From positions 1 to 40,419 of the forward strand of contig JAIWWG010000163.1 in NCBI GenBank assembly GCA_025435555.1: 40,419 bases of DNA, in the 5' to 3' direction. The notes under the pieces are model-generated. The model was not told where the DNA came from, searched no databases, and saw nothing but the letters and a program-made list of their open reading frames with translations. Origin of the DNA: Chytriomyces cf. hyalinus JEL632 (taxonomy: Eukaryota > Chytridiomycota > Chytridiomycetes > Chytridiales > Chytriomycetaceae). The translations under genes and the position numbers were made by a program. Below, in pieces: positions 1,851 through 34,942 of the stretch (within the stretch, counting starts at the first letter, position 1; the number at the start of each line of letters is the position of its first letter).

Positions 1851-2202
1851 AAAGCGAAATGACCAGTGACGGGGTCATTCCGGCAGTTAACAGGGACGAA
1901 GGCGTCAAATTTTCGAACCGCTGGCAAGCTCTGTATTCAACTGGACGCGCTGCTGTTCCCTTGAGACCGGTATTGCAGGGTTGCATGTTGCTCATCGTTT
2001 TATATTTATTTATTTATTTTCTTTTTCTTTTATTTTTTCTTTTTTTTTGCTCATGGGCGTCAAGGACAGACATTGGCGCGAGAAAAGGAAACAGAACAGC
2101 GAATAAACAGAATATGCTATGATTTAAAATAGAACCCGTTCTTGCCTGCGAGACAAAAAAAAGTGAAAGAAAACAGCCGAGGACCCCCCCGTCAGCGAGG
2201 CA

Positions 2203-3266
2203 GCACAGCGCGAGATGGCCAGCCGCGGCCTCCATTCATAGCCTCGTCGCACCGTCGTACGCAGGTGAGCGTGCTTTGAACGTGTGTTTTACGTCCCCTG
2301 ACACCTGCTTGGCCCAAATCCCCCAACCAGTTTGCTGCCTCTCGATTCAGTCTTGGTCGTAAGAGCCCTTCCCGGGGACAAAGGTGCGTATAAAGACAAA
2401 CAGCAGCGCGGTTCTCGGGCCGACCTTGGACAAGTTCGAGAACCGCTGGTGCCAGCTGTACGGGAATACAGCTGGCTGCCATTTGGATGCGTCAAGAGGA
2501 GGGCATCGATGGCGGACCCGACCACGGACATTGCACAGGGTCAAAGGAGGTGTGGCATAACCCTATCCTTACTCCCCTACCGTCCCGAAGGGTCTGCCCA
2601 ATCTCTTGGTGCCGCTCTCACTCTTCCGCTTGTCCGTACACGACCACCCACCTTAGGTCGCCGCAACGTTAATTTGGGAATGCTGCATGATCGACAGAGT
2701 CTGCAGATAGAGTCCCCACTCTGTGACCCGGGGGACCGGGGCAGGGGTTGCATAGAACTGTAATTGACCCATTCGCAGCTGACAAAGCTATCTCTGAATT
2801 TATTCAGAGGCGGAACGCGTCCATCCGTGCATAAGGTCTGCTGGGGTATCGATAACAAGAGTTGGGGAAAATGCTGCTGATTGTCTCGCCTTTTTTTGAC
2901 CCTCCGCCTCCTCTTTATTGTGTATGCTAATCTCTTAGATTACCATTGAAGCGAGACTTTGGATCATTTTTTTATTCTTCCCTCCCTGCTCTCCTTTTTC
3001 TTAACCCGATTAAGCTTCTTTTATGTCTACCACGCAAACTAACCCCTAGGATTCCCGTGGCCAATGGACACTGGACGCGCTTGGATCAGAATGGACACTG
3101 GCTACTGAAACTGGGTGCGGAAACTGGAAACCGGAGGCTGTAGGCTGAGCGCAATGGATACTGGACACCTGAGGTAAGCGGTGGGATATGATTCAGGGCC
3201 TCCTCGCGGCTCCCACCGGAAACGAGGGCAGAGGTTTACCCTTTGCTCTCGGCTGACACTGAATCG
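2203..3266 (+). repeat. 1.06-kb near-identical element, copy 1
   Basis: This segment matches 13831-14896 almost perfectly. From 2203 to about 3010 I see only one substitution and one single-base indel. About 3014-3110 has a cluster of changes, and the rest to 3266 is again nearly identical (one indel). The flanks are far more diverged. It contains a TATAAAG at 2389-2395, two adjacent perfect hairpins (2408-2446 and 2452-2475), another hairpin at 2792-2809, and pyrimidine-rich runs. ORFs inside it are shared by the copies only because the DNA is the same, so they are not evidence of coding. No terminal inverted repeats, target duplication or polymerase domain was recognised. It could be a non-autonomous mobile element, a solo LTR, or a structured RNA gene. 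Confidence 0.8.
2408..2475 (+). other. Two adjacent perfect hairpins in element copy 1
   Basis: Stem 1 pairs gcggttctcg (2408-2417) with cgagaaccgc (2437-2446), ten perfect pairs around a 19-base loop. Five bases later stem 2 pairs ccagctgta (2452-2460) with tacagctgg (2467-2475), nine perfect pairs around a six-base loop. Two clean, GC-rich stems side by side suggest a folded RNA. The sequence gttcgagaacc resembles a Pol III B box, but I found no convincing tRNA fold. Confidence 0.6.
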
Positions 3267-3469
3267 TTTTATTATTTTGTTTCCTTTCTTGTGGATGTGT
3301 TTGAAATAAAAATGCCGACGTTTGCTGGACTTGTTACTGTCTGTGTTTGGACTGATTGCGCCTGTCACGCCTTCTGTTTTGAGAGGGTCGTTTGTTCTTG
3401 TTGTTTGCGTAAATGAAGATCGGCAAATATTTTCGTAAAAATGTTCACAGTGCCAGTCTGAATCAACGG

Positions 3470-3800
3470 AGGGAGGCAGAGAAACAGAGCGGTTGCGTCG
3501 TTTGCGTCGGTAGGGTGGAGCATTACAGATGCTGGATCTGGTTGGCTGTCGTGACTGCAATCCTGAGCATGTGAGTGGCACTTACCGGCCGCTTCTGAAG
3601 GCGCTTCACATTGAACCATCCCTGCTGATGGCGCAGCAGCCATCGCGAATTATTCTGTCAATCTCATGGAATCTTGGATGACTCGAGACTGCACATGTGG
3701 CTGAGGTGGGCCTGCACCTCGCTTTTGGCATTTCGATCCCTCTAATCTCGTAATCTCCAGCGGCCGTAAATACCCTTCAAGGATGTAATCGCATCCAGAC
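3470..3800 (+). pseudogene. Decayed fragment of RabGAP N-terminal exons
   Basis: It aligns with the RabGAP 5' exons at 38.38-38.68 kb: 'gtcgtgactgcaatcc' against 'gtcgtggccacaatcc', then 'gtgagtgg', 'cgaattattctg', and 'gatgactcgagactgcacat' against 'gatcactcgagactggacat'. Intron sequences are included, so the copy arose from genomic DNA and not from a reverse-transcribed message. The frame is not maintained. A shortened version of this block is present in inverted orientation near 15.48-15.6 kb. Confidence 0.65.
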
Positions 3801-4619
3801 TGCGCTGTCATTTAAGATGCTTTAAAAGGAAAAAGCGGCGTGAAACATAACGGCCCCATTCGAAAATCTGAATCTGAGCTTGCAAGTCGAATAATTCAAA
3901 ATGCGTTTGCGTGAAACAATATTGGTGGTCTGAGGTGCACGAGAAATTCTATTGTGCAGTTGTGACCAACGCTGAGTCGAGAGACAGCGGAACCCCGGGG
4001 CCTCTGCGGAATCGTGTGGCGCTCCATCTGACGACACGCGGATGTTCTCCAATACAGCGGGGAGGATATCGCTGGGACACTGGAACGCGGGAAGATTTGT
4101 TAACAACAACACGCACGGACGCTGTGGGTGGGTAGACATGGGCTGTGAGAAGACACTGAATGGGATTTCCTTGGACTCCAGCCCAAATTCTGGAACGATG
4201 CCAAACGCGCTTCAAAAACCCAGTTTCAAATTCTCAAACCGACTTCGCGATACTATCTCCTCAGCGCTGTTGATTCATCGACCAAGAAATGCTGCAAAAA
4301 CTGAAGCAAGCCTGTGTCAGCCCAATCATCTGTCCGGGTATTCATCCGAGATTGCAACGTGAGCCAAAGTCTGTGCGGAGCTCTGCTCCAGTTAAACTAT
4401 GCATCAAGGACAATATTTCGAATTGAATGCGAGCAAGATTCATCGAGCTTTCAGGGTCGTTACTTGTCGAGTTGACCAGGTTGCGGCACGTTGTCTCACT
4501 TATGAGGGGAAGAATCCGTTGACACGTGGAATCCCTGCAGAACTGCGCAATCTCAATGCTGCAATATCTTTCGCTCTGCTGAAACCAATTGCATTGAAGC
4601 CCGGCGGATTCGTCATGAA

Positions 4620-4800
4620 TATCTGTGAATTAGCGCCATGTGCAGCATGAACATCATTCGACGCTAGTGGTAATAAGACCAACATCACGGAAACACGAAA
4701 CATCAGCGCGCCATGTCTTTGTATGCAGAGCACCACTTAGTACCAGGCGACCATTGTGTTTTCCTGATTTCCTGTCAAATGCTTCGAACGAGTCAGCAAT
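4620..4800 (+). pseudogene. Second decayed RabGAP GRAM-2 fragment
   Basis: The stretch with 'ttagcgccatgtgcagcat', then 'agcaccacttagtaccagg', 'cgaccattgtgtttt', 'cctgtcaaatgcttcgaac' and 'gagtcagcaatc' follows the parent at about 39720-39890 base for base with many changes. Stops interrupt the frame. It lies immediately upstream of a copy of the N-terminal exons (4815-5110). The two parts are therefore in the opposite order to the parent gene, showing rearrangement after duplication. The preceding 3.8-4.6 kb holds no gene I can support. Confidence 0.65.
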
Positions 4801-4814
4801 CGCGCAAGACCAAA

Positions 4815-5110
4815 CCTGAGTATGTGAGTGGCACATACCCCCTCTTCAGCGCCTCAAATTGAACCATCCCATCTGACGGCGGATCTCGTTTCAATTTTAA
4901 GCAGCCTTTCTTTCGAATTATTCTGAACAGCGCACAGAATCCTGGATCGGCCGATACGTGACATTCATGTTGTTGCGGTGGGTCTGACTCGGATTTTGAG
5001 GCTATCGTCGCGTTTGATCTCACTGATTATATTTCGAACACCCGTGAATAATGCAACGGAATGCAGGCTGCGTAGTCGTTTGAAAAGTTGTCAAGTGGAA
5101 TGGCTGAGCT
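4815..5110 (+). pseudogene. Third decayed copy of RabGAP N-terminal exons
   Basis: Alignment with 38440-38700 is clear: 'gtgagtggcac', 'cggcggatct', 'cgaattattctgaa', 'cacagaatcctggatc', 'gttgcggtgggtctgac' and 'atcgtcgcgtttgatctcac'. It carries both exon and intron sequence of the parent. Reading frames are broken. An inverted relative lies at 15290-15540. Confidence 0.7.
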
Positions 5111-5289
5111 GCAAAGTGATAACCAAGGCCAATACCACGCCGCCTCCAACGCACTTTTTCTTTCGAAACACAATCAAAGTGAACGCATTCGTTGCCGTGG
5201 TAAACTGCCCTATTCAACGGTGCTTTGCAGTAATGCTTCATGGGCGCAAATCTGGACTGGGAGCTCAGCGGCCGAATGATTCATAATTG

Positions 5290-6200
5290 CCATGCGTTCG
5301 AAGCTTTGAACCCTCGCCGACATCGCTATTTGTTGCAGCTCGTAAATCTCGGATGGATGAAGAGAATGAAGGGAATTTTGTGATTGACATCACCGGCAAC
5401 ACTGCTTCGAAACTCATTAGAACACAGGAAGTTGAGGGTTTTCGAGAATCTGAAAGATCTTTGTGCAACGCGTCTGCGCACTTGTTTGAATCCATCAAGT
5501 CTGGAATTTGCGCGAGGCGTTGCTGTCACCGAAATCGAAATCCACCTTTTATCGATTTGTCATGGAGGGAGTGGTCGGCGTCTGGGATCTGCACTCCGCG
5601 TTCTTTCACGGTTTTACGGCTGCGGATCTGCATTGGTTCACTCAAACTTCATTACATTTGATCCTTCCACAATTTAGTCTGACACCAAGCGTCTTCTCGA
5701 AATCATGGTTGACCGAGTCGTTCATTGCATTGGCATTCACTGATGGGTTTCTGGTTGACAAACGTTCCTCTTGCCACTGCTTCAATCTACATGGGTTTCT
5801 TAAAATGTGCTGCACCAGAAAACCAACGCTTCATCATTGGCCCACAGGGCATTCCAGTCGAAACAGATTCCGAGCCAAGCTCCTGCCATTCAACGTTTTT
5901 TGACTCCGGCTGCCTTTGGCTGCAATATTACGTGTTTGTTGAGAATTGGACCATCTAGTCTCAAAAATTGGTCGTTCATCAGCTCTGTCAACCAGTCTGC
6001 TGCACCGGCAACGTCTACTTCTTGTGCGCCTCTTACACCTTCGTGTCAGCTTCAACGAAATTGAATCCGCGCTTCAAATCTGCTTCTCACAGAACTTTAA
6101 CACACTTACATCGTGTACAAGCAAGTATGGATCGAAAGTTGAAAGGCATTCACCAATCCCGGCTGTCGGTATTCAGCTCTCGGGGGCCGCCGTAAGTGTC
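5290..6200 (+). pseudogene. Decayed coding block of unknown origin
   Basis: Two patches keep similar peptides in the copies elsewhere. DE.NEG.F.IDI.GNTAS is seen at about 5357-5410 and, inverted, near 14.93-14.99 kb. MEGVVGV.DLHS is seen near 5561-5600 and again near 15950-15985. Retained peptides in two diverged copies suggest descent from a coding sequence, but the frame changes several times in each. I do not recognise the family. It follows the RabGAP fragments directly, so it may be another part of the same scrambled cluster. Confidence 0.4.
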
Positions 6201-6328
6201 TTAAATTCGAGGCGCTTGAAGGACGTTTGTACTCCCTGCTTTTAGAGCGGGGTAGCCCTTCCGTTATGAGCGAGCAAAAACCTCTTCATCTCCTTGCTGC
6301 AACAGACGATCGGGCTGACGACTTCTGG

Positions 6329-6356
6329 TTTGTGGTGGTTGTGGTGGTTGTGGTGG
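6329..6356. repeat. Short (tggtgg ttg) microsatellite
   Basis: A tract made of tgtggtggt and tgtggtgg repeats, reading as Pro-Gln-rich on the minus strand. The surrounding 6.2-6.54 kb shows no gene I can support. Confidence 0.8.
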
Positions 6357-6539
6357 AGGATTTCTTTCCTCATGCTTGTGTTCAAGCATGTTTTTATTCC
6401 ACTCGCCGCTTATGTTCTTGATTCGTGTTTGAGCTCAAAAAGGGTGAATGAAGCGAGTGTAGAAGAGTCATTATCGATCTATCATCAAACTTCATTCCTT
6501 CAATGAACCGCCACGCAGTCAACTTGACTTGACCCCAAT

Positions 6540-7420
6540 TTCTGAAACTCTTTCTTCACCAGTCTCGCCATCAATTCTATGCACTGACCGGGGATCCATT
6601 TCAGTCTCCCATCGAAACTTGTCTTCGAAACCGTCCTGGCAAATCCCCTTCAAAAAGGTTCCCGCTCAGATCCTATAGCGCCAACTCGCTACAATTCTCA
6701 AGCAACTCGGAAACAGCTGTCCCTTCAACCGCGACTCTGTGGCTTCAACCAACGCCCGCATCATCCAATAATACGCGTCCGCATCTTAAACTTGCCAATC
6801 AAACTGCTTCGTAATCTATAGCACAATTTTGGAATGACATTGTATCCTTGCATCAGTTTCAAGCAGCGAGAGAAGCAACGCACTGCATTCGGGCTCGTGT
6901 CTGCCACAATCACAATGTCGTACTTGTTGCATACGAATTGAACGTGTCCACGTTGAATCAATTGCTGCGCGCGTGTGTGGCTCATGCCGTATCCAGATAG
7001 TTGTGATGGATCGAATGTGGCCATTTTCGAAGAGAGACCTAGTTTATCGAGTGCTGCAAAGAGATTTGCTCGACATCCGCCGTGTCTGTTGTTGTAGAGC
7101 ACGGCTGGTTTCCATTGACCGACGACTCTTTGTATACTCGAATCCGATGAGACGTCGAATCTGCATGCATAACACCAACACTTGAATAAAACGCGTTGGA
7201 ATGAGAATCCGCGACAACTTACATCGGAATGAATGCCTATTGCAGGCTGTTTGAAGAGAACAGAGCAGACCGTGTGTTTCGCAGAGTTCGTTCATGGATG
7301 TTGGGATGCGCACTTTCATGTCGCCCATGAGAATCAGAGTCACGATGGCGGTGGATATGAGGGCAATGATGAAGCGGAGGAGTCGCTTGTGCTTGCGTTT
7401 GGGCCCAGTATTTTTTACGT
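6540..7420 (-). pseudogene. Broken type II membrane glycosyltransferase-like gene
   Basis: Read on the minus strand, a hydrophobic segment (FIIALISTAIVTLILMG, near 7330-7380) is followed by a lumen-like region. Then comes a small intron (gtaagttg...atgcag, about 7164-7222) and a block with the motifs LYNNRHGGC, GYGMSHTRAQ, and KYDIVIVADTSP. From memory these match an uncharacterised fungal family with NNRHGGC, a YD.ivVaDT signature and a later NRFDW motif. Downstream the match continues only by changing frame: CKDTMSFQNC...DYEAV, then a stop, then DADAYYWMMRALVEAT in another frame. That pattern means a decayed gene. It would have been a Golgi or ER enzyme; the glycosyltransferase assignment rests on recollection of the family. 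Confidence 0.55.
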
Positions 7421-7522
7421 TTATTTTTCACGTGACGCGCGAACTGTAGCACTCGGAGGATCCGAGAGAATAACAACAACAACACACAAATTTATTCAAA
7501 TTCAGTACAAAGAAGAAGAGTG

Positions 7523-8150
7523 TTATTCAATCCATGGGGTGCCAGTGTCATTCTGCAGAGTCAGTCTCAGATTCCTAATTTCACCACCAAATTGTTGACC
7601 AGCCAAAATTCCAAAAATTATCCAAGCGACCGCGCGAAGGACCTCCGTATACGCGACCGATGGGGATGGGGTGAGGGGAGGGGGGAGATGAAGGTGATGT
7701 TTCCTGCGAGAAATGGGGGAAATTGGAGGGGGTGATGGTCTTTGAAGGGATGAATAGATGTATGCGTTGATTGGATGACAGGAGGGGGCGAAGGTGTTGC
7801 ATGAAAGGGGTGGGGTTGTTGTGGATTTGCGTGGAAGTGAGTTACTGATGTTTGAATGGGCCGCCGAGAGATTCCTGATGACTTTTTGAGTGCGATGAAA
7901 AAGATAGTGGACGTGGCTTCAGATGCCACTACCGTCCTGAATCGCTGGATAACACTTCGAAAATTCGCAGTTTGGTCCTGCTGACAATTTCGACTCCGTT
8001 AATGCCAATGAGGCAAAAAGTGAGTTTTCTCTTGTCAACTGGAACGACGAAACACTGTCGCTTACTCCATTTGATCAATGAGATGCAAAGGGATGGACAG
8101 GTCAGCGGGAGATGGTCTTGACGTCCAATTCGATGGAAGGATGGCACCAA
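7523..8150 (-). pseudogene. Second unit gene, left copy (probable remnant)
   Basis: Two minus-strand patches keep peptides in both units. One reads SLCISLIKWSKRQ, then VVPVDK, LTFCLIGINGVEIV (about 8100-7950). The other is a C-terminal piece with FGILAGQQFGGEIRNL and LQNDTGT before a stop at 7523; the right unit has FGNLAGQGACGELKN and LQNATGT. The Pro/His/Ser-rich stretch between them is poorly conserved. I cannot build one open multi-exon model, so this may be a decayed gene or one with introns I failed to place. It lies just downstream of the repeat-protein gene on the same strand. The family is not recognised. Confidence 0.35.
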
Positions 8151-8692
8151 AAAGGAATTTTTCCGTCTCGTGAAAGTTCTGAACGCGCTCGCTTATGATG
8201 ACGAGTTTGCGTCAGGCTCAAATGTTGACTTGATGGACATTCTGACATGAATCATTGGTTCGAACCAATGAATCGATGAAGCAGCACGGTTTGTGGTGAT
8301 ATGATGGTGGCTTGGCAGTAAGACGGTTGTGGAAGAAGTCGGGAGAGGAGAGGGGCTGGAGTAGATGTGGGGCAGGAATGGATGATGACGGGATTGTGGC
8401 TGTGGCTGTGTTCATTGATGTTGTTGGATGGAGTAGATGTTGATGCGGAATGTGGCAGTCGTGCAGCGGAGGTCATCGTTGCGGTCGTGTGGTATTTTCG
8501 GGTTTGGATGGCAGCAAATTTGGAAGTGAAATTGGGGAACCAAAACTGAGAGGGATCGAAAAAAGGAAGCTTGTTAAGAGTCTGCAAGATCACGCAGTTA
8601 AAAAAATGGAAAGATACCTGTCCTCCGAGATTTCCACTGGGCGATCCCTTGGATGTGGCAGCGTGACCAAAAATAAAAGTAAATATAGAAAG

Positions 8693-8712
8693 AAAAAAAA
8701 AAAAAAAAAAAA
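8693..8712 (+). repeat. A20 homopolymer
   Basis: A run of 20 A on the plus strand, about 90 bases beyond the stop of the left repeat-protein gene. The matching site in the right unit has 27 A. Because the genes are on the minus strand this is a T run in their 3' flank, so it is not a poly(A) tail of those transcripts. Confidence 0.9.
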
Positions 8713-8801
8713 CCGCGAAGAGCAAAATAATAAATACCAAAAGGAACACAATAAATAATACGCAACAGTAAAAGGAATAATATAACCAAAAATGTCCTTC
8801 A

Positions 8802-10056
8802 TCAATCGGAAGACTTTTTCTTCTGTTGAATTTTTTGAAATGATCAGAAAACCTGTTCAATCCAAAACAAGTGAACTAAAGCAGCGAGTACGTACCTCAT
8901 CGAGCTTGAACGCCAATCCTCGCCATTTGATCTTGATCATGGATCTCTTGAAGATTCGGTCCTGTTCTTCGGTGCAGACTCCCAACTGGTGACAGAACTT
9001 CACAAAGTGTTTGCTCTTCAGCCGAGAATCGCGCCACTTGTTTTGCGACTTCAAACGTCTGTTGACTGAAAAAGCGGGTTAGATATGAAACAGAATCTAC
9101 CCACCAAAGCAAACTTACCAATCTGGTAGTCCACGACTGTTTCAATGACTTTTTTGCCAGCTTTCTTCTTGCCGGAAAGTTTGGATGGGATGTAGAGGCG
9201 GTCCTCTTTTTTTATTTCTGGGCGGATTGTGGCTATGTGTGGCCATTCTGGGATGGTAGGCGACCAAGGATGGGAGACGGGTTCTCAATTCATGCCGATA
9301 ATGCGCGGTACTTTCCTTGAATTCCATCAGCTCTTCTGGACAGGAACCATTTAAGTATTGACGAAAATGAATGGGCATTTCAGCTTTGGAGGATGGTGTA
9401 AGCGAGTTTGTTGGAGTTGCAGATGAAGTGGAGGCAGTACTGAATGGTGAAGGGAATGTTGCAGCTGGTGTACTTGTTGAAGCAGTTCGTAATGTGGATG
9501 ATTTCCTTGCACGTGTGAGGATGAAAACATCGTCATCTACAGGTGATGAATCGCATGTTTGGAGAAAGCAATTGATTAATGTGGGTCGTTGAGAGGATGA
9601 CGTGCATGAGGTGGTGGCAGTTGTGACTGCAGAGGCGGCGGTGATGTAAGCGGAAGTGACTGGTCTAGATAGTGTAGTTGTAGTTGCCGTGGCTTGAGTT
9701 GATGGTTGACTTGCTTGTTGGAGGGCGAAAATAAGATTGTCTAATGGTGATGGGTCGCTTGTTTGGAGAAGGTGATTGTTTGACTCGGATTGAGAAGATG
9801 TTGCGCGTGAGGTGGTCGAAACTGTGGCTGCAGAGGTGGTGTTGGCGGAAGTGGAAGTGGCTGTTATAGCTGGTGTGGTCGGAGCTAAAGTTGCTTGTGT
9901 TGTGAATTTTCGCGCGCGTTTGGCAATGAAAACGTCATCGTCAAAAGCTGCTTCGTCGCGCGTTCGTTTCAATATTGGTGGTGGTTTCTTGAGCATTTGC
10001 TTTTTGGAGCTACGTGAGCCACCTTTGTTTGTGATGTCACTTAATGGACGTTTGTT
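8802..10056 (-). pseudogene. Ser/Thr-rich acidic-basic repeat protein, left copy, frameshifted
   Basis: The main exon begins after an acceptor at 10057 ('ttgcacag') with NKRPLSDITN and then PPPILKRTRDE. It carries three spaced copies of a short motif: FDDDVFIAKRARKF, SPLDNLIFALQQ and SPVDDDVFILTRARKSS. Linkers are rich in Ser, Thr and Ala. After an extra base near 9265 the homologous frame continues as IKKEDRLYIPSKLSGKKK. A 54-base intron (9119 to 9065) and an exon to 8896 follow, with LGVCTEEQDRI and IKWRGLAFKLDE. The last exon has a two-base insertion relative to the right copy before its stop at 8802. KRARK clusters suggest nuclear localisation (inference). With two frame breaks it is probably inactive unless they are sequencing errors. 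Confidence 0.6.
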
Positions 10057-12590
10057 CTGTGCAAAAAACAACACATCAGCAGTTAGCCTTCAAAGTCAAT
10101 TTCGACCACGTCTCATTCACTCCTCAGAGAATCCGTGACCAGTTCAGAAAGTAAAAAGGTGGTGTTGAAAAGGGAGAGCACAAGCAGCCGAGAGTCCACC
10201 ACGCGTTCCAAAGCCGCGTCGATAAGCACCCACACCACACAATATCGCTAAATGAGACTTACTTTGGCGTTCTTCTTTGTCATTTGGTCGTGTTTGTTTG
10301 CTGTGCTGTTTGAATGCAGTTTGCTTGTTTTGGATGAGAAAAAAGTACGAAACAAAAGGCACCATCGAGAAAATCAAGACGGACGAATTTACACGTTCAG
10401 CGAGCTCCGTCAATACGAGCATATGCAAGCTGGACGGGCTGGAACTTATTCAGACGCAGCAGACGGCGAAATCGGCGTAAGAGCAAGCGAGGCGAGATTG
10501 CGTGGACCACTGTTCATGGTTGAAGGCGCTTCGAACACATGTCTTATTCAGCTCCTGAATGCAGCAGCGGTACTCGGCACTCGGTTTCCAGTCGGTTCCG
10601 TGGGTTTGCGCCGTGTCCGAATATCCGCCACCCTGTTGAATTCGTCCGAACCACCCGATGCCATTGCTTTTAACGCAAGCGAACCAGCGTATGACCGCCA
10701 GTAGAGAGTGTGTCAGGAAGATGGATTCGCTGGACGGAATCGAGTGATGTCAGTTGTGGAGTGTATTCGCAGGTGTGGTGTTTTCAGCGCCACACAAGAA
10801 CAGGCGCGGACTCAATTTCGAAAGTGTGAGTCATGTTTGGAAGTATGGCTGTAGAGCAGGCGAGATATGGCACGTGCAGCTCAGGAAGCAGCGAACTAAT
10901 ACGGACTGTGTTGGCTCAGCCAGACTGGTTCCATCATGGCAAACTGGCGGACGGATACATTCGTTTTATTTCCTGTACACTGTCCCACTGTGTAGCTCTG
11001 AAGTGGAAGATATGGTATTTGGGTGGTCTTCAAAGTAAGTTATACTGTAAACATGACACATGTGTGCGCAAACTCACTTTAAGAAAATAGGTTTGGCCCT
11101 CAAACAGTGCATTGAAAACAATAAGTAGCAGCACGCCGACGATCGAAATTCGAGGGCGGATATTGCTGTGACGTTCCCACGTTTCAAGGTACTTTTTATT
11201 GTTTCCATCACACAATGGACACGGATAAAAAAGAGATTCTAATCAGCTGCATCATAATCCAATGGGTTAGCAATGGGAAAGCTTGGCTTAGGCATGCACG
11301 CCATTTTATTGACTCCGCTAGGCTCATTGAAACTGTGTCACTGACTTGGAAGCAGCGAATCCGCAACAAAAAGCTCAATCAACGCGTCATTTTTCCGCCC
11401 AGTTTTTTCATCAGACGCTGCTTTGTCTTGACTGGCTGCTACCTGCTATCTCCACTCGCTTGCAACAAGCCCTTGCGTCATCATTCAAAATCAATGTTGC
11501 ATCGCTCGAATTCTTCCTCCAAACGTGCTGGAGCTCAAAAAATCGCACATGGAAATTTTGAACCGAATGTTGAATTTTTTCCGTTGATGAAACGGCCACG
11601 CAAAAAGTCTTGGAAAAATGCCGAAGCATCGATGTTTGGAACGCTGTTCTCTCAAAGTTCGCGCTTCTGGATGCGGGAAAAATGAGTTGAGTGCAGCTTG
11701 CTATTTTCAGTTGTGGTTGGACTCTGGTTTTTCTGATTCACACACAGTTTTTGATGCCATTTTTATCTGTTGACTGGCATGTATGACGAGCATAGACTGG
11801 AATCTTTGGATGATATGTCACCAAACGGAGCGAAGATTGATTTCCTGATTATGAGCCATTCCTGGGAGTTCCTGGAAGTGACCGTGTGCCCAAGGGGGAG
11901 GCGAAGGTCCAAACCAAGATGCTCCTGAGTTGGCATCAGACGCGTTCACACAAGAAATTTCGCTGTGTCTGGTGTCCAGGTAGTCTCTGCCCGCATATGT
12001 CTCACGCAAAATGATTCTGAACATTGGTGAGAACCTTCGCCAATCGGGTGAGTTTGTCTTTGCGAGTTTTCCCCGCATTGACGCATCAGTCTGATATTTA
12101 TTCAGATGCCAGAGATTAACCCTCAAGGTGACGCCTCCATTTCGGACTTGCGCGTGTGTCTTGTGAAGTCGCGCCTTGCCACAAGCAATGAAAAGGATGT
12201 GCCAAACATGACCACGTGAGTTGTTGGTATCTCCTGGATGCTACGTAAACTCACACATCTTTTTTATTCCGTGGCCCGAAAACAGCCTCTGTAACAATTT
12301 ATAAACTACTTTGACTGTCCAAAGTCGAGTCAGCACACTGCGAACGTTAGTCCACGGTGTGACAGATGGTTGCGTGAAGTCTTAGGAAATGGGAGAATCT
12401 TCTCGATTTGTTTGCTCAATTTCATGCAGGACACTGATATAAAATGACGCCCATGGCTGTGTTGACTCGCAAATCATTGACGGCGGCACAAATACAAAAA
12501 CCGATTCGTAAAACACTACACACGCCATTCAACTCCACATCAGTCATCGCGAAGATATACGCGGAAGAGGTAAACTTTGCTGTTCAAGCT
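10057..12590. other. Unit interior without an intact gene (left)
   Basis: This stretch lies upstream of the left repeat-protein gene and aligns with about 19.8-22.3 kb. The longest plus-strand ORF (10252-10704) is not kept as an ORF in the right unit, so I do not call it. On the minus strand near 11215-11080 both units keep the frame NNKKYLE.WER..NIR and then FNALFEGQ before a GTGAGTT donor. That hints at a former exon with a hydrophobic segment (VGVLLLIVFNALF). Nothing else can be supported. Confidence 0.4.
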
Positions 12591-12676
12591 GTTAGCTCAC
12601 CGCATCTGCGACATAACACAGCGAACAACTCTCTGCATTCCCAATCCGTCCCGTCGACTTCAAAAACACTTGAATC

Positions 12677-12883
12677 TTACGGGTTTCTTCGGTCCGCCTG
12701 AATCCACTTTGATTCCTGTGTTTTGACTGTTGTGTCACTGCGCACCATCGAGATACTTGACTGCTCCCAAACAGGTGGAGGATGGCTTGGGTGCTCGCGA
12801 AGGTCCCGACGGAACAGATGACGCAGTATGTCCAGGCTCGCAATGGAGCAGGCCAAGTTGGGCGATCGCACGATTCCGCACAT
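12677..12883 (-). pseudogene. Conserved reading-frame block, left unit
   Basis: The minus-strand frame here and at 22399-22614 in the right unit share RSPNL.CS..SLD.LR, then LFR..LREHPSHPPPVWEQ and NDTTVKTQES-like segments. A GTAAGA donor follows in the left copy but is lost in the right. Downstream both units keep TDWECRE. Maintenance of the frame across diverged copies suggests a former exon, perhaps of a leucine-rich or F-box-like gene running from about 13.4 kb leftward. Neighbouring parts are broken in both units, so I class it as a remnant. The family is not identified. Confidence 0.4.
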
Positions 12884-13399
12884 CCATCAAAACACAACAG
12901 CAAAATTTTCACAAAACAAGGTGGCGGCAACACAAATTTTCCGTACCAAAGGCCACTCAACGGGATTCACACGCTCTTGAACAAAGTTACGTCGCCGATC
13001 AGAATTGTGAAGAGATTTTTCATATTTCTTTTCCTTTCCATTTTCCTTTCTTGTTCTCTCTGTGTTCAACATGCAACTTAAAGCTGGCAAAAAATCAGGC
13101 ATAACAAAACACCGAAATTTCGGATGGTTTGGTATTTGATGCACGCTCTTCAACAACAAAAATGGGTCATACACCGCCATACGTTCATCGATTCTACGGA
13201 CATTTTTGGGCCAGCGAGACGGAACACGGCGCAAGCAAGTTCGGAGGCTATTCTGCAGCTGCACCTGCCTTGAAAGCAACATGAGAGAAGTGACTCTGAC
13301 TGCAGATTCAGCGCACAACGTTTGTACGAACAGAGGAATATCGCTCGAACACGATGCATCATACATATGTTGAACATTGAGCACTGCTCAAAACCAATA

Positions 13400-13830
13400 C
13401 CAGACGGGCAATGTTCTTCCCACTTTATTGTCATCTTCTGGGCGAATCCCGGACTAGAAACGATTTTTGGAACACGTGAATAAAGTGATTTTCAGCTTGA
13501 AGACGATGCTGGATTTGACAGTTGAACAGGGCGAAATCCCCAAATATTCGTAGCGCCTTCTGGCGAGCTCGTGTATTTAACTGAACGATCAGTGCACGGT
13601 CGCATATTCTTGATTCCGTCAAATCGACGGCGTCAGTGATGGAAATTGGCATGTGAAAAGGAAATAGAACAGCGAATAAAAAGAATATGATATTTTTATG
13701 AAGTCCGTTCTCGACTACGGGACAGCAATATCTTATCTTGCTTTTTGTTTGCTTGGACGGGATTTACCAAAACAAACTTTGTCAAAAGAAAAAGTGAGAG
13801 AAAACAGCAGAGGACCCCATAAGCGAGTCA
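13400..13830. other. Junction between unit and element copy 2
   Basis: The left part belongs to the duplicated unit. From about 13640 the sequence resembles 2065-2200 (shared 'gaaaaggaaa.agaacagcgaataaa'), so similarity to the flank of element copy 1 starts before the near-identical part. No gene was recognised. Confidence 0.45.
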
Positions 13831-14896
13831 GCACAGCGCGAGATGGCCAGCCGCGGCCTCCATTCATAGCCTCGTCGCACCGTCGTACGCAGGTGAGCGT
13901 GCTTTGAACGCGTGTTTTACGTCCCCTGACACCTGCTTGGCCCAAATCCCCCAACCAGTTTGCTGCCTCTCGATTCAGTCTTGGTCGTAAGAGCCCTTCC
14001 CGGGGACAAAGGTGCGTATAAAGACAAACAGCAGCGCGGTTCTCGGGCCGACCTTGGACAAGTTCGAGAACCGCTGGTGCCAGCTGTACGGGAATACAGC
14101 TGGCTGCCATTTGGATGCGTCAAGAGGAGGGCATCGATGGCGGACCCGACCACGGACATTGCACAGGGTCAAAGGAGGTGTGGCATAACCCTATCCTTAC
14201 TCCCCTACCGTCCCGAAGGGTCTGCCCAATCTCTTGGTGCCGCTCTCACTCTTCCGCTTGTCCGTACACGACCACCCACCTTAGGTCGCCGCAACGTTAA
14301 TTTGGGAATGCTGCATGATCGACAGAGTCTGCAGATAGAGTCCCCACTCTGTGACCCGGGGGACCGGGGCAGGGGTTGCATAGAACTGTAATTGACCCAT
14401 TCGCTAGCTGACAAAGCTATCTCTGAATTTATTCAGAGGCGGAACGCGTCCATCCGTGCATAAGGTCTGCTGGGGTATCGATAACAAGAGTTGGGGAAAA
14501 TGCTGCTGATTGTCTCGCCTTTTTTTGACCCTCCGCCTCCTCTTTATTGTGTATGCTAATCTCTTAGATTACCATTGAAGCGAGACTTTGGATCATTTTT
14601 TTATTCTTCCCTCCCTGCTCTCCTTTTTCTTAACCCGATTATGCTTCTTTGATGTCTACCACACAAACTAACCCCTAGGATCACCGTGGACACTGGACTC
14701 TGGACGGGCTTGGATCAGAATGGACACTGGCGACTGAAACTGGGTACGGAAACTGGAAACCGGAGGCTGTAGGCTGAGCGCAATGGATACTGGACACCTG
14801 AGGTAAGCGGTGGGATATGATTCAGGGCCTCCTCGCGGCTCCCACCGGAAACGAGGGCAGAGGTTTACCCCTTTGCTCTCGGCTGACACTGAATCG
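13831..14896 (+). repeat. 1.06-kb near-identical element, copy 2
   Basis: This is the second copy of the element at 2203-3266, in the same orientation and offset by 11628-11630 bases. Differences are one substitution (cgcgtg for cgtgtg near 13910), a one-base insertion near 14405 (cgctagctg), a patch of changes at about 14645-14740, and one extra C near 14870. Everything to its right is arranged differently from copy 1: the flanking segment is inverted. The contrast between the high identity here and the heavy divergence outside suggests recent movement, gene conversion, or constraint on the element. Confidence 0.8.
14036..14103 (+). other. Two adjacent perfect hairpins in element copy 2
   Basis: The same ten-pair and nine-pair stems as in copy 1, with identical loops, at 14036-14074 and 14080-14103. 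Confidence 0.6.
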
Positions 14897-15840
14897 CTCA
14901 GATTCTTGAAAGCCCCCAACTTCCTGTGTTCCGAAGCAGTGTTGCCAATGATATCAATCTCAAACTTCCCTTCATTCCTTGATTCATCCGAGATTTACGA
15001 GGTGCAACAAATAGCGATGTCGGTGAGGGTTGAAAGCTTCGAACGCATGGCAATTATGAATCATTCGGCCGCTGAGCTCCCAATCCAGATTTGCGCCCAT
15101 GAAGCATTACTGCAAAGCACCGTTGAATAGGGCAGTTTACCACGGCAACGAATGCGTTCACTTTGATTGTGTTTCGAAAGAAAAAGTGCGTTGGAGGGGG
15201 CGTGGCATTGGCATTGGTTATCACTTTGCTGTTTGGAGAAGCTCAGCCATTCCACTTGAAAACATTTCCAACGACTGCGCAGCCTGCACTCCGTTGCATT
15301 ATTCACGGGTGTTCGAAAATACAATCAGTGAGATCGAACGCGACGACAGCATCAAAATCCGAGTCAGACCCACCGCAACAACATGAATGTGCAGTATCGA
15401 GTCTTCCAGGATTCCAGGAGCTTGACAGAATGATTCAAAGGAGAGGCTGCTTGGAATCGAAACGAGATCCACCCGTCAGAAGGGATGGTTCAATGTGAGG
15501 CGCTGAAGAGGGGGCCGGTAAGTACCACTCACATGCTCAGGATTGCAGCCACGACGGCCTACCATATTCTGCATTCGTGCTGCTCCTTCCTCCGCGTCGC
15601 AACCACGACATCCTCTGATGATCAAGACTGGCTCGTTGAACATTTTTACGAAAATATTTATCGATCTTCATTTACGCAAACAACAAGAACAAACGACCCT
15701 CTCAAAACAGAAGACGCGACAGGCGCAACCAATCCAAACACAGACAGTAACAAGTGCGGCGAACATTAGCGTATTTCAACAACATCCACGGGAAACGAAA
15801 AACAAAACAAAATGGAAAAAATCATCTCTTGTGCGGCACA
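14897..15840 (-). repeat. Inverted copy of 3.27-5.46 kb with internal deletion
   Basis: Read on the minus strand, 15830 down to about 15480 matches about 3270-3640, and 15540 down to 14900 matches about 4830-5455. The part equivalent to about 3.65-4.83 kb is missing. To the right, 15841 onward resumes in direct orientation at the equivalent of 5458. The inversion breakpoints are therefore the end of the 1.06-kb element and about 5457 of the left arrangement. It includes a RabGAP N-terminal fragment. Confidence 0.7.
15290..15540 (-). pseudogene. Inverted decayed RabGAP N-terminal fragment
   Basis: On the minus strand this shows 'gtgagtggtac', 'cttctgacgggtggatctcg', 'gttgcggtgggtctgactcg' and 'cgtcgcgttcgatctcac', which follow the parent at 38.44-38.64 kb and the decayed copy at 4815-5110. 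It is part of the inverted segment. It has no usable frame. Confidence 0.6.
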
Positions 15841-30293: not shown

Positions 30294-30749
30294 TTATTCG
30301 ATTTGGACGCGCTTTCCTTCAAACTCGCGTTTCCCCACATCCACTCTCAACACTCCATTTTCCATTTTGGCCTTCAAATCTGAAAGATCGGCATTTTTGG
30401 GCAAGGGGATACGCGCATCCACACTCCTTTCCCTCTTTCCGCGCGCACCGTCTGCGTCCAACTTCCCCTTCAAAATGACAACACTTTCGTGTTCATTGAC
30501 GCTGAGAAGAACATCTTCCTTGTTGAAGCCTGGTACATCGATTTCCAGACTCACGCGGCCGTTTGCAAGATTCGTGGACGTGACATCAGCGTTGCTGAAG
30601 TTTTCGAAACGATTGCGACGCGTTTCACGGTGACGTTTGCATGCGTCGTGGAGCCATCTTCGAACTGTTGGAGTCGCTTCTTCGGCAGAGGCGATGACAC
30701 TGCTATATTGTGACAAATTGCGAACTGTTAGTCTAATTGCATGTGGCAT
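30294..30749 (-). CDS. Small heat-shock protein (Hsp20/alpha-crystallin)
   Basis: Starting at the Met at 30749 (MPHAIRLTVRNLSQYSS) the protein is 151 residues. The alpha-crystallin domain is clear: VSLEIDVPGFNKEDVLLSVN, VVILKGKLD, a variable loop, IPLPKNADLSDLKAKMENGV and LRVDVGKREFEGKRVQIE. The GVLRV motif near the end is the family hallmark. Members are ATP-independent chaperones that hold unfolding proteins. The N-terminus is basic and serine-rich, which would allow mitochondrial import (inference). An alternative start by splicing to the ORF just upstream is discussed in the findings. The gene converges with the Asn-rich protein gene, with 93 bases between stops. Confidence 0.85.
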   Translation of the reverse strand: MPHAIRLTVRNLSQYSSVIASAEEATPTVRRWLHDACKRHRETRRNRFENFSNADVTSTNLANGRVSLEIDVPGFNKEDVLLSVNEHESVVILKGKLDADGARGKRERSVDARIPLPKNADLSDLKAKMENGVLRVDVGKREFEGKRVQIE

Positions 30750-30768
30750 TGTTACGATGAATAGGATC

Positions 30769-30906
30769 CTACCTTGCCGAATCCTCAATAGACATGGTTC
30801 TGTAATGGTTGAAGAAGTTGGACTGGCTTCCGTGGTAGGCCTTGTGAACCCAATCGATTGCGTAGGCGGTGATTCCGACCTTGACCATGAAACTGAAGAG
30901 ACCCAT
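30769..30906 (-). CDS. 45-residue ORF just upstream of Hsp20
   Basis: The frame MGLFSFMVKVGITAYAIDWV, then HKAYHGSQSNFFNHYRTMSI, ending EDSAR, stops at 30769, 19 bases before the Hsp20 ATG. The first 18 residues are hydrophobic enough for a membrane helix, which resembles small mitochondrial inner-membrane proteins in general style. The frame is open further upstream to 31050 (93 residues from the first Met), so the true start is uncertain. It may be a separate small gene, or an N-terminal exon of the Hsp20 gene, because a GTAGGA...ATTAG intron would join the two in frame. No family was recognised. Confidence 0.4.
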   Translation of the reverse strand: MGLFSFMVKVGITAYAIDWVHKAYHGSQSNFFNHYRTMSIEDSAR

Positions 30907-31277
30907 TTCTTTGTTTTGTGGTTTTTCGCAGGTGGTATGAGATGCTTGGTAAGCGTTTGATGCTGTTGAGGGTGCTGAGAAGGGGTCCCTTTTTATGAAA
31001 TTCAGGAACTTGGTCCATACGTGGTTGCTTATTGAGTTTCCGTGGGTCAATTAAAAAAAAGGCTTGATACCTTCCATGACGTGGGTGTGACAAATCAGCG
31101 CAGCATCGCTACTCATGACGACCAATTCCAATCCCCTCGCAACTCGACAGTCCAAACAGTTCGAACAGAGTTTAAATACGGTCGCATTTATTCGCAGCAG
31201 CAGCAGCTCAAACGCGACAGAAAAAACAGTTCGAGCTCGTATCAAAAGTCGTAATGCATCATATAGGCGGGTATCGA

Positions 31278-31776
31278 TTAATCGTCGTCGTCGTCCAGAT
31301 CGTCGTTGTATCTTCGTCCACTGGATTCGTAGGCTGGCACATCCTTATTGACTTCTTCGGAGGCGTCAATCCAGTCATGGTAGACATCGATAGGTTCGGA
31401 TAGTGCTAATGTGAGATGGATTGTAGGGTCAGGATATGGGCGCACAGGTCGCTGTAAAGAAAGACAAACAGTTGATGATGGACTGGAAGGTGACGCCGCA
31501 CTTTTTGCATTGCAGATTGCCGATATTGTTGCTCTTGTCCCTGAGCGTGTTTCGAAGAAGCGAAAGGGTCAGAGACGTCGTTCAAGTTGGATCGAAGATG
31601 GGGTTTTTTTACATTCGCACGGAGATGGCGTTTTCATGGTTGCAGAGAACGCACTGGAACTCCTTCTCGAGCTTCACTTTCAACTTTGCCTGCGGTTTCT
31701 TTGCCGACTTTCGCTTTCCTGTGTTGCCGTTTGAGTGTGAGACAGGAGCAGACGAACAAGTTAAAGACTGACCCAT
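31278..31776 (-). CDS. ELF1: Transcription elongation factor 1 (Elf1/Elof1)
   Basis: Four exons join to a protein of about 90 residues. It begins MGKRKSAKKPQ and has the zinc ribbon C..C (FQCVLCNHENAISVRM) and C..C (LQCKKCGVTFQSIIN). The family signature LSEPIDVYHDWIDASEE follows, with an acidic tail ending in a run of Asp. Exon 1 is only ATGG (31776-31773), followed by a GTCAGT intron; without it the conserved N-terminus is lost. The other introns use donors GTAAAA and GTTTGT. Elf1 binds elongating RNA polymerase II and helps passage through nucleosomes (known for the family). All four zinc-binding cysteines are present. Its start is 37 bases from the Dlt1 start on the opposite strand, so the two share one very short promoter region. 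Confidence 0.93.
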
Positions 31777-31813
31777 TGGCGGTTAAATAAATAAAGAAGT
31801 TAAATATTTCGAA

Positions 31814-32654
31814 ATGATCAAGATCTGGACGTTCTCGTCGCTGCTTGCGATGGTGGCAGTCACGTTTGCACTCATTGGTGTCTGTGGCCTGGATCTGTAC
31901 ATTCAGATTCTGCGCATCCGCGAGAACGTGGCCATGCTCACGACAACGCTGTTGCTCGCTTCTTGCACTTGTAAGTACTCTTTGTGGCTTCAACAGACAT
32001 CTCATTCAACTCCAACGAATTAGGCACTCTTCTCTGTCTCGATCCTCTCTGTGCGAAAGCTGCGTGTGGCCCGTGGTCTCGCACAGATCCCGCGCAACTT
32101 TGTCCCGATCAACGACCATCTGCCACAGTCCATTCTTCTAAAGGCCGTGCAGGGCATGACTGAATCGGCTGCAATACGGGCGGTAATGAAACCGTTATCG
32201 CACGAATGGTCCGTTGTTTCTCCTTGATGATTCATCCAACACTCACGCGCAAAGCAGCCACGTTGACGGTTACGGGCGGTACGATCAAGATACGCCAGTG
32301 CATTTCAAAACAGCAATGAGGAAAACCCTCTCCATCTTTAGTACGCGTCAAATAATCATCCTCTGAACGTTTGGTTGTTTGACGCGTCAAAAGAACTGAA
32401 CAGCAACTTCCGAATCAGGCGACACCGTTTCAAATCCTGCCCATGACCTCGCATACAACGGACACCAACCTCTTCAGGAATACTTCGACTCTCTTTCAGC
32501 GCGCAATATTAAACTCAATCCTCATTTTGCAAAAGTGTACCTTCGAAACTATGAATCCATGGCACAAAATCCAAACGAAGCCACGGAACGCGAATACATT
32601 GAATTCATGAAAGTGTTTTCGCTACTTTTGAGATCGTTGGATGTGGTGGAATAA
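31814..32654 (+). CDS. DLT1: Dlt1-like membrane protein, model with one frame problem
   Basis: The first exon gives MIKIWTFSSLLAMVAVTFAL and LYIQILRIRENVAMLTTTLL, two hydrophobic segments flanking a polar loop. The next block, after a GTAAGT...ATTAG intron, has ALFSVSILSVRKLRVARGLA, QIPRNFVPINDHLPQSILLK and MTESAAIRA. These match the fungal 'defect at low temperature' family as I remember it (SVRR....IPR..vPI...dLP). The last exon has LQEYFDSLSARNIKLNPHF, YLRNYESMAQNP and EYIEFMKVFSLLLRSLDVVE with a stop at 32654. The first splice does not join these frames with standard GT-AG ends, so one base may be wrong or the intron differs. The middle exon boundaries (32.2-32.4 kb) are unresolved. Its stop is 25 bases from that of the aspartate kinase gene. 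Confidence 0.6.
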
Positions 32655-32679
32655 AAAAGACATGTAGAAAGAAGTTGGT

Positions 32680-34619
32680 TTAATCTGTTTCACCCAAGAT
32701 ACACGCATCATGAACTACTTGGAGCGCCTTGACTCCCATTGTCCCATCAATCACGCACGAAATATTTATTTCAGACGCACTGATGAAGAGAGACTGTTAA
32801 TCGAGAGAAATGCGTGCATTCAAAATCAAACTCACCCTTGACTGATCATTTCCAAGTTGATGTGATTTTTGGCAAGCGTCGAAAACATGAGCGATGCGAT
32901 TCCAACCATGTGTCGCATCTCGCGTCCAACTAGCGACAGAATCGTCATATCACCGATAGTGTCCACCTGCAAAAGAAGTAAGCGAAAATGAAGATTGAAG
33001 GTCCAGAAGAAAGGACTCACCACAGCGTACTTTTGCAACTCTGAAACAGCCAGTTTGATCTTGTCTCCAGAAATGTGCGGTCCAAGCGCCATACTCACAT
33101 GCACCTCACTCGTGCTAATCAAATCCACAACAATCCCACACCGATCCAACGTGGAAAAAATCTTGGCAAAGAATCCATGCGATACGCTTTTCCGGTTTGA
33201 ATGAATGTTCAGAACGGTGATGTTTTCTTTGATCGTGATGGCAGTGGCCATGTGCCCGCTGCGACTTCCCTTCCCATTTGCGGTAACTTTGCTTCTTTCC
33301 AAACTGATCTCGCGACTCGGTGGGTGTCCGAGCGACGGCGGCAAGTCACTTTTTAGAGCATCAATCCCATCCTGCGGAATAATCACTGTCCCAGCGCCAT
33401 CAGGTTTAAAAGCGTTTTTGATACGAATCGGGATACTTGCTCGAATCACTTGATCCATTGTAAATGGATGAATCACTTCAGATCCATAGTACGTCAATTC
33501 TGCGGCTTCCTCTGGTGAAATGGACGAGAGAAGATATGCGCGAGGTGCTTTACGGGGATCCGCTGTAAAGATTCCATCCACCTCCTTCCAAATTTGAAGT
33601 TCGCGCGCTTTCAGACCCACCGCAATAAGAGCTGCAGTAAGATCAGTGTATCCACGACCAATTGTGGTCACAATGGATCCCGGTATAGGGCCTAGGTATC
33701 CAGTGACAACTGGAACACAGTTTGGATCCAGACTCGAAATCACTTCAGTCAATCTTGAGGAGAGATAATCGTAAAAAGATTGATCCAGTGTTTTCGGATC
33801 AAATTGCTTTTCAACGAGGCGTTCCAGGTTCACAAAATGTGCGTTGATGCCCTGAACATGAGGGATTTTAGAATAGTCATTCAAGTTGCAGAAAGTAAAT
33901 CAATCTCACCTGATCTTGCAGAATAGCAGAAAAGATGCGAGCCGACAGCTTCTCACCGACAGAAATGATAACATCGCGAGACCGAGGTGAGATTTCGTCG
34001 ATAATCTGGACACGAGTTTTCGAAATGATAGATAAATCAGAACAGATAACGACACAAGGAATTCATCGGGACTCACCTCCGCAGCAGACATGAACGACCT
34101 CAATTTTTCGCACGCATCGCTCACATCTCGAGCAGCGTGTTTGCGAATCTGTTCGTTCTTGACACCCTCGGCAACGGCCTTCAAGTGATTTGCTTCAATC
34201 TTGGACACAATGTCGAGATACAGAGTCGAGTTTGGTAGTAAGATATCTTCTGCTGCTTCGAGGAGCCTGCGGAGATGCATAAGCCATACAGAGTGAGTAA
34301 CTTGTTTTGGGGAACAAGAAGCATTGAATCCATCGCAGCGCGACTTTCAACTTGAAGCTTCGAATACATACATGCTTGTGGTTCCCTCAGCTTTAACGTA
34401 ACTGCTCATGGCCGAGAGGACAACGATTGTGCGGTCATTCTTTGTCAGGTTTCTGGGAAGTGGGAGATAAGAATCGAGGTTCATCAGGGACCCACAGGCG
34501 CAGTGTATGTGCGTACGGGTAGAAAGATGGGTTTAGAGGTACTTGATGATGTCTGCAACTTGAAGCATCCGCTCTGCCGAGCCGACTGAGGTTCCGCCAA
34601 ACTTGGTCACAATCGTCAT
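32680..34619 (-). CDS. HOM3: Aspartate kinase
   Basis: The enzyme phosphorylates aspartate, the first step toward homoserine, threonine and methionine. Seven exons join in frame to about 530 residues. The start at 34619 gives MTIVTKFGGTSVGSAERMLQ with the nucleotide-binding KFGGTSVG. Then come VVLSAMSSYVKAEGT, SVGEKLSARIFSAILQ, GRGYTDLTAALIA, WKEVDGIFTADPRKAPRA and YYGSEVIHPFTMDQVIRASI, all conserved in the kinase domain. Two ACT-type regulatory parts follow: VLNIHSNRKSVSHGFFAKIF with VVDLISTSEVHVSMAL, and GMASL-like VGIASLMFSTLAKNHINLEM. The short last exon reads ASEINISCVIDGTMGVKALQ and ends at 32680. ACT domains usually give feedback control by threonine. It is divergent from the TRIP4-like gene, with 323 bases between start codons. 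Confidence 0.93.
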
Positions 34620-34942
34620 ATTTTTTATCGATTTGTTTTTTTGGTTTGGGGGAGATAATGAAACCCGTTGTGACGTCATTCGAAAACGGACAGCGCTTGG
34701 ACGTAGGAGGGTGGTGCGCTCAAGAAGGACTCGTTAGTATAGCACAGGAGGAAATGCGCTTGCAATTGCTCGAAATAGGAGACATCGCAACTCGTGGTGG
34801 CCAGTTGGATCCAGAGAGGAGAGCTTGAAAAGCTTTGTGAATGAGGCGATCTGCTTGCTGGCTTCGTTTAAACATTGATGCAAACAGTCGGCGAAATCAG
34901 AGATAAATATTAAATAAAGTGAAGTAAAACGACCTTAAAATC
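34620..34942. promoter_or_regulatory. Divergent promoter region, aspartate kinase / TRIP4-like
   Basis: The 323 bases between two start codons facing away from each other. A TTAAATAAAG-type A/T-rich stretch lies near 34905-34925. The 60-codon ORF inside (34646-34828) shows no family features and is not called. No specific regulator site was recognised. Confidence 0.4.

Follow-up and report, generated by a model that had tools for sequence, protein, structure and literature searches.

HDV-like ribozymes at the end of a duplicated element in Chytriomyces cf. hyalinus, and a possible role in RNA 3′-end formation

Self-cleaving ribozymes of the hepatitis delta virus (HDV) type occur in cellular genes, where, to our knowledge, their role is mostly unknown. 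The ribozymes considered here belong to the chytrid fungus Chytriomyces cf. hyalinus JEL632. They came to light in a window of 40,419 nt, the whole of contig JAIWWG010000163.1 (C72 below; assembly GCA_025435555.1, 37.8 Mb in 242 contigs), where each of two near-identical elements of about 1.06 kb ends in an HDV-like sequence (copy 1, 3180-3266; copy 2, 14809-14896; both on the forward strand). Fungal HDV variants described earlier typically carry a C-G pair at the cleavage site and a loop E in helix P4, and have an additional nucleotide between P2 and P3 (PMC5640933). The Cpeb3 ribozyme of mammals is HDV-like, lies inside an intron of a cellular gene and is thought to race with splicing (PMC10919898). 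In trypanosomatids, the Pr77/SIDER hallmark of retroelements has spread an HDV-like ribozyme through the genome, and SIDER2 is found largely in 3′ untranslated regions and promotes mRNA turnover (PMC4035085, PMC5509151). The RNA of R2 is reported to be cut at the 5′ junction of the element; the 5′-end ribozyme of R2 and other long interspersed nuclear elements (LINEs) has a reverse-transcriptase open reading frame (ORF) downstream. In a retrozyme, two ribozymes flank a circular-RNA unit.

The chytrid sequences share with the HDV families RF00094 and RF02682 a P1 helix whose cleavage-site pair is G-U or G-C, the loop L3 (UCCUCGC), a P1.1 of CC/GG, P2, P3, a variable P4 and an invariant C in GGCU(G/A)A. 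They depart from these families in an extra G between P2 and P3, in a 7-nt L3 (28 of 29 aligned rows) and in family scores below the gathering score; cleavage is here predicted. Fungal origin, many copies, varied gene associations and the extra nucleotide between P2 and P3 link them to the fungal variants, but the cleavage site has G-U or G-C and P4 appears to be a regular helix (95.3% of cells paired) (PMC5640933). Like Cpeb3, the ribozyme is associated with cellular genes and a race with splicing is proposed, for which Cpeb3 serves as a precedent; in contrast to that single intronic ribozyme, many copies abut splice-site-like sequences or T-runs and are mostly followed by AATAAA (PMC10919898). 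The genome-wide spread recalls Pr77/SIDER, yet no retroelement was found at the loci scanned here (PMC4035085, PMC5509151).

A permissive Rfam scan of 2000-3400 matches RF00094 to 3178-3268 with 37.6 bits (E 0.0018). The sequence-only reading had seen no known RNA family in the element, a view that this match overturns for 3180-3266, although it falls below the gathering score (50 bits for RF00094), which is a curators' cut-off and not a mechanistic feature. Five of 13 other loci match an HDV family at E ≤0.05, four of them RF00094 (39.6-42.4 bits) and two RF02682 (31.7-31.9 bits), with L081 matching both. A tRNA search found nothing. By sequence and fold, 3180-3266 (family match, alignment and pair counts) and 14809-14896 (with one extra base in the P4 region) are HDV-like ribozymes, with predicted cleavage between 3179 and 3180 and between 14808 and 14809.

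The fold was assessed on an alignment of 29 copies with differing contexts, pairs being counted for P1, P1.1, P2, P3 and P4 on 27 distinct rows. Standard pairs fill 97.7% of the 726 cells of this nested double pseudoknot, as against 26-49% when the partners are slid. L3 is in place, P1.1 is CC/GG and the extra nucleotide between P2 and P3 (G18) is invariant in 29/29 rows, as is the C of GGC in GGCU(G/A)A, which we take to be the catalytic C that the HDV family has in J4/2. The cleavage-site pair is G-U in 19 rows, G-C in 7 and unpaired in 1. P4 varies in both length and sequence while keeping its pairing; two-sided changes affect five of its eight pairs and 21 cells, compared with 5.9 in shuffles, none of 500 reaching 21. 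The P4 length differences, which are non-multiples of three, also argue against the idea that a conserved exon is encoded here (frame WDMIQGLLxAPTGN...) and that the HDV fold is incidental. Frame 3 does stay open through internal copies, and GTGAGT at the end of a cyclin-like ORF (L029, L033) could splice into it; however, of the first 15 codons, 12 are invariant at the third position (compared by eye). A peptide search did not support an exon, since all 18 genome matches are ribozyme sites (16 among the core-pattern sites described below, two diverged on C41), and this explanation is very improbable.

With up to three mismatches, the core pattern finds 63 genome sites, 37 of them exact, and the reversed control finds 0. 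Outside the 63 stands a C171 copy with an inserted base, found by similarity, and two further diverged copies are present on C41; the fungus carries at least 64 ribozyme copies, haplotypes possibly being counted twice. No exact match to the core was found on viral contigs. Placement was scored in 42 distinct contexts defined by the core pattern, leaving aside C171 and copies near a locus edge (e.g., L025:58). The predicted cleavage site comes directly after 4-8 consecutive T in 23/42 contexts (1.07% at random positions), a 5′-splice-site-like GAG|GTRAGY without a T-run directly precedes it in eight, and a 3′-splice-site-like ...ACAG|G(T/C) in 11, the last count being the 17 hits of that pattern minus six 5′-splice-site rows that it also caught. 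The base before the predicted cut is a pyrimidine in all 42 (T 34, C 8). AATAAA follows the ribozyme within 130 nt in 32/42 contexts, against 24/450 background windows (5%), and in 27 of these 32 the first AATAAA lies at 20-45 nt. In the window, GAG|GTAAGC abuts the predicted cleavage site of both copies (3171-3179 and 14800-14808, forward strand; splice use putative), and an AATAAA at 3305-3310 on the same strand starts 39 nt past the end of ribozyme copy 1.

The HDV fold, the covariation in P4, the dispersal, the fixed placement and a conservation above that of neighbouring coding sequence can be read from the DNA; transcription, self-cleavage and a kinetic switch we infer. The best reading, with a probability of roughly 60%, is a dispersed HDV-like ribozyme that would cut transcripts just before the poly(A) signal and compete with both splicing and polyadenylation. 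The element would be a transcribed unit with the ribozyme as its 3′ boundary. The nascent RNA would fold into the nested double pseudoknot and cut itself directly upstream of the ribozyme, parting the upstream RNA (in the window a 495-nt structured RNA, elsewhere cyclin-like mRNAs and repeat-rich transcripts) from its poly(A) signal. The cut would leave a 2′,3′-cyclic-phosphate end, often after a U-run, giving an oligo(U) end at T-runs; at splice sites, it would prevent splicing. Where splicing or polyadenylation came first, an uncut polyadenylated RNA would result.

The genome search with the long query, in which 40 of 75 candidates were scored, returned 35 partial matches besides the full copies of the element, all within the last 122 bases of the query. 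The start points of these matches matter for a second explanation, in which the ribozyme marks a mobile element (similar to LINEs and short interspersed nuclear elements, or to retrozymes) whose RNA, beginning at the self-cleaved end, is copied to new sites, the position before AATAAA being incidental. Nineteen begin exactly at the predicted cleavage site and four two bases earlier, as in R2, whereas the other 12 share 5-35 bases more upstream and paralog groups share the upstream flank. Also against mobility, the most distant contexts resemble each other downstream no further than about +150 to +195, counted from the start of the ribozyme, over a stretch that contains AATAAA; closer contexts are alike much further. 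Mobility would suit the many copies and their enrichment near contig ends: of 21 sites on contigs >200 kb, 14 are no more than 50 kb away from an end, with 5.2 expected (contig size known for 51/63 sites; sites clustered). It would also suit the pairs of directly oriented ribozymes at L022, L028, L027 and L025, which are spaced 0.84-1.44 kb and of which the first ribozyme follows a 3′ splice site; the window copies, unlike the paired ribozymes of a retrozyme, are single. On the other hand, Pfam found no reverse transcriptase, integrase or transposase among 27 ORFs, 20 from the window and seven from a minority of the other loci. A mobile element is, on balance, unlikely. At L081-L084 (C15, C88, C61 and C27), upstream segments that resemble one another carry a GGACAA variant of the ribozyme and are joined to two different downstream sequences. 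A cullin gene on the minus strand at L034, 341-905 after the ribozyme, runs towards it from the opposite side.

Several observations weigh against a cleaving ribozyme before the poly(A) signal. Every Rfam score is under gathering (42.4 bits at best), and a scan of the window at the gathering score returned nothing. Eight of the 13 other loci lack an HDV-family match at E 0.05, and a whole-genome RF00094 search had no matches, its control likewise having none. Ten of the 42 contexts have no AATAAA within 130 nt, window copy 2 among them, which lacks the poly(A) module because of an inversion. The contexts are not independent, paralogs sharing flanks; the gene for ribosomal protein L3, a protein that has its best scores with fungal chains, is found at two near-equal loci, and the site counts may include both haplotypes. 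P1, P1.1, P2 and P3 show no two-sided change at all, P1-P3 being nearly invariant. The number of pairs with two-sided changes (5) is close to that in shuffles (3.9; reached by 141/500), and the count of pair types does not exceed shuffles either (338/500 reach it). Common origin or conversion may therefore explain much of the identity. Degenerate copies also exist, one broken in P1 (L027:659) and two on C41 broken in P3. Finally, a run of T6-T7 at 2967-2973 could end an RNA polymerase III (Pol III) transcript upstream of the ribozyme.

The elements themselves bear on the share of conversion. Self-BLAST aligns 2155-3266 with 13785-14896 over 1115 columns at 97.9% identity, with 17 mismatches and four gap openings, as against 72-91% in the homologous surroundings, so two near-identical elements do lie inside decayed duplicates. 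The region had been placed correctly at 2203-3266 and 13831-14896 (forward strand), the alignable part being slightly longer, from 2155 and 13785. An assembly duplication does not account for the pair, since copies and flanks differ. Part of what had been taken as drift on both sides is an inversion: the 923-bp segment following ribozyme copy 2 (14898-15820, minus strand) is inverted relative to the segments after copy 1 and after the C228 copy, with 99.7% identity to C228. One breakpoint of this inversion lies 1-2 nt past ribozyme copy 2. Genome-wide, the full element occurs five times (two copies on C72, two on C228, one on C22; 94-99% identical to copy 1), and a search with the structured part alone again gave five of five candidates. 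Only five copies being found, and the dispersed part being the ribozyme with its 3′ module, recent arrival as a single mobile 1.06-kb unit is not supported; the absence of a transposase was borne out among the 20 window ORFs.

Identity is uneven along the five copies, and sequence beyond 3266 falls apart. Within 2203-2393, the two copy groups differ at 13-15 of 189 columns (27-30 against one C228 copy, C228a, inflated by a one-base alignment shift), whereas any two copies differ at 0-3 of the 331 columns of 2394-2724; between copy 1 and C22 the values are 15/189 and 1/331 (p 2e-6). Copy 1 is a mosaic: 18 informative sites in succession (2239-3003) carry alleles of window copy 2 and C228a, and eight of the next ten (3022-3117) carry those of C228b and C22. 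Identity to C228 is 99.5% in its left flank and 95.8% in the element itself. These contrasts point to ongoing conversion or recombination among copies, which accounts for part of the identity. Pure homogenisation, in which element and ribozyme cores are alike only through interlocus gene conversion and have no function, would further accord with P1-P3 lacking two-sided changes, and with L035 and L057 being alike downstream of the ribozyme and L057 and L018 upstream, as if recombined at the ribozyme. It fits poorly with a P4 that alters length and sequence yet stays paired, with high identity that is restricted to folded parts and does not extend into the flanks, and with the 495-nt RNA, which keeps the pair at seven of nine substituted paired positions (through G-U on the forward strand; two do not). 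Homogenisation without function is judged a poor bet. Near-invariance of 2394-2724 and of the ribozyme beside diverged neighbours, together with the two-sided changes in P4, are signs of constraint. Of the options raised from the sequence for the likeness of the window copies, gene conversion and constraint are thus both supported: it reflects conversion together with constraint that acts on the RNA parts.

Upstream of three ribozyme loci, ORFs give weak Cyclin_C matches (E 0.0015-0.07, below the cut-off), and a profile built from four such ORFs has 16 Protein Data Bank matches, all cyclins (E 0.008-0.24). The AlphaFold model for the cyclin-like protein was of unusable quality (mean predicted local distance difference test score, pLDDT, 47.9). 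The family comprises 16 loci in the genome (20 match rows), 10 of which have a same-strand ribozyme 0.46-0.96 kb past the matched part (C163 twice, C7 twice, C188, C215, C186, C236 twice and C171). At the C182 locus the ribozyme is 2.7 kb away, and at C234:63940, C6, C85 and C10 (twice) none is nearby within three mismatches. In comparisons of six paralogs that leave out gapped columns, identity reaches 92-99% in the ribozyme and 81-98% in the preceding 260 nt, compared with 64-89% for the coding part (99% for L029/L033) and 33-83% from +131 to +400. At L029 and L033, the GTGAGT at the ORF end would turn the 260-nt stretch into a terminal intron. In L019, L023 and L029, the stretch from -260 to -3 is more conserved than the cyclin-like ORF in most pairs and may hold another RNA structure. 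Among the open-licence papers listed by literature searches, none was seen to describe HDV-like ribozymes next to poly(A) signals or in cyclin genes of fungi.

The element also contains a near-invariant candidate structured RNA of 495 nt upstream of the ribozyme (2394-2888 in copy 1 and 14022-14517 in copy 2, forward strand), closed end to end by an AGACAA/UUGUCU helix. Its minimum free energy is -203.5 kcal/mol against -173.7 (sd 6.7) in 100 shuffles (z -4.43); the reverse strand also beats shuffles (z -3.24, vs. -4.06 for the forward strand of the stretch used in that comparison). Comparison with Rfam gave chance-level matches only. The T6 or T7 run at 2967-2973 (forward strand) follows a conserved GTCTCGC/GCGAGAC stem in five of five copies and would possibly suit a Pol III stop. 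A telomerase RNA was considered because a 5′ splice site lies close to the 3′ end, because the genome has TTAGGG repeats and because UAACCCUA at 2558-2565 could template such repeats; by our estimate an 8-mer of this kind occurs by chance in ~5% of RNAs this long, and the lead was set aside as weak and probably due to chance. The 495-nt RNA is a second, separate unexplained structured RNA. The right side of the window (30297-36852 and 39051-40190) holds ordinary genes for HSP20, aspartokinase, a TRIP4-like protein and a GRAM-domain protein.

A broader proposal, which we put forward tentatively and hold to be doubtful, is that the ribozyme would act as a reusable 3′-end switch in dozens of genes, the cyclin-like family and the 495-nt structured RNA included, competing with splicing and polyadenylation to decide whether a transcript is kept and making U-tailed cyclic-phosphate ends. 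A single genome here holds dozens of copies in a common placement (a splice-site-like sequence or T-run, the ribozyme and, in most cases, AATAAA), and among the paralogous cyclin-like genes some have the ribozyme and others lack it. If the copies do cleave, the role of a natural ribozyme in RNA 3′-end formation would become directly testable.

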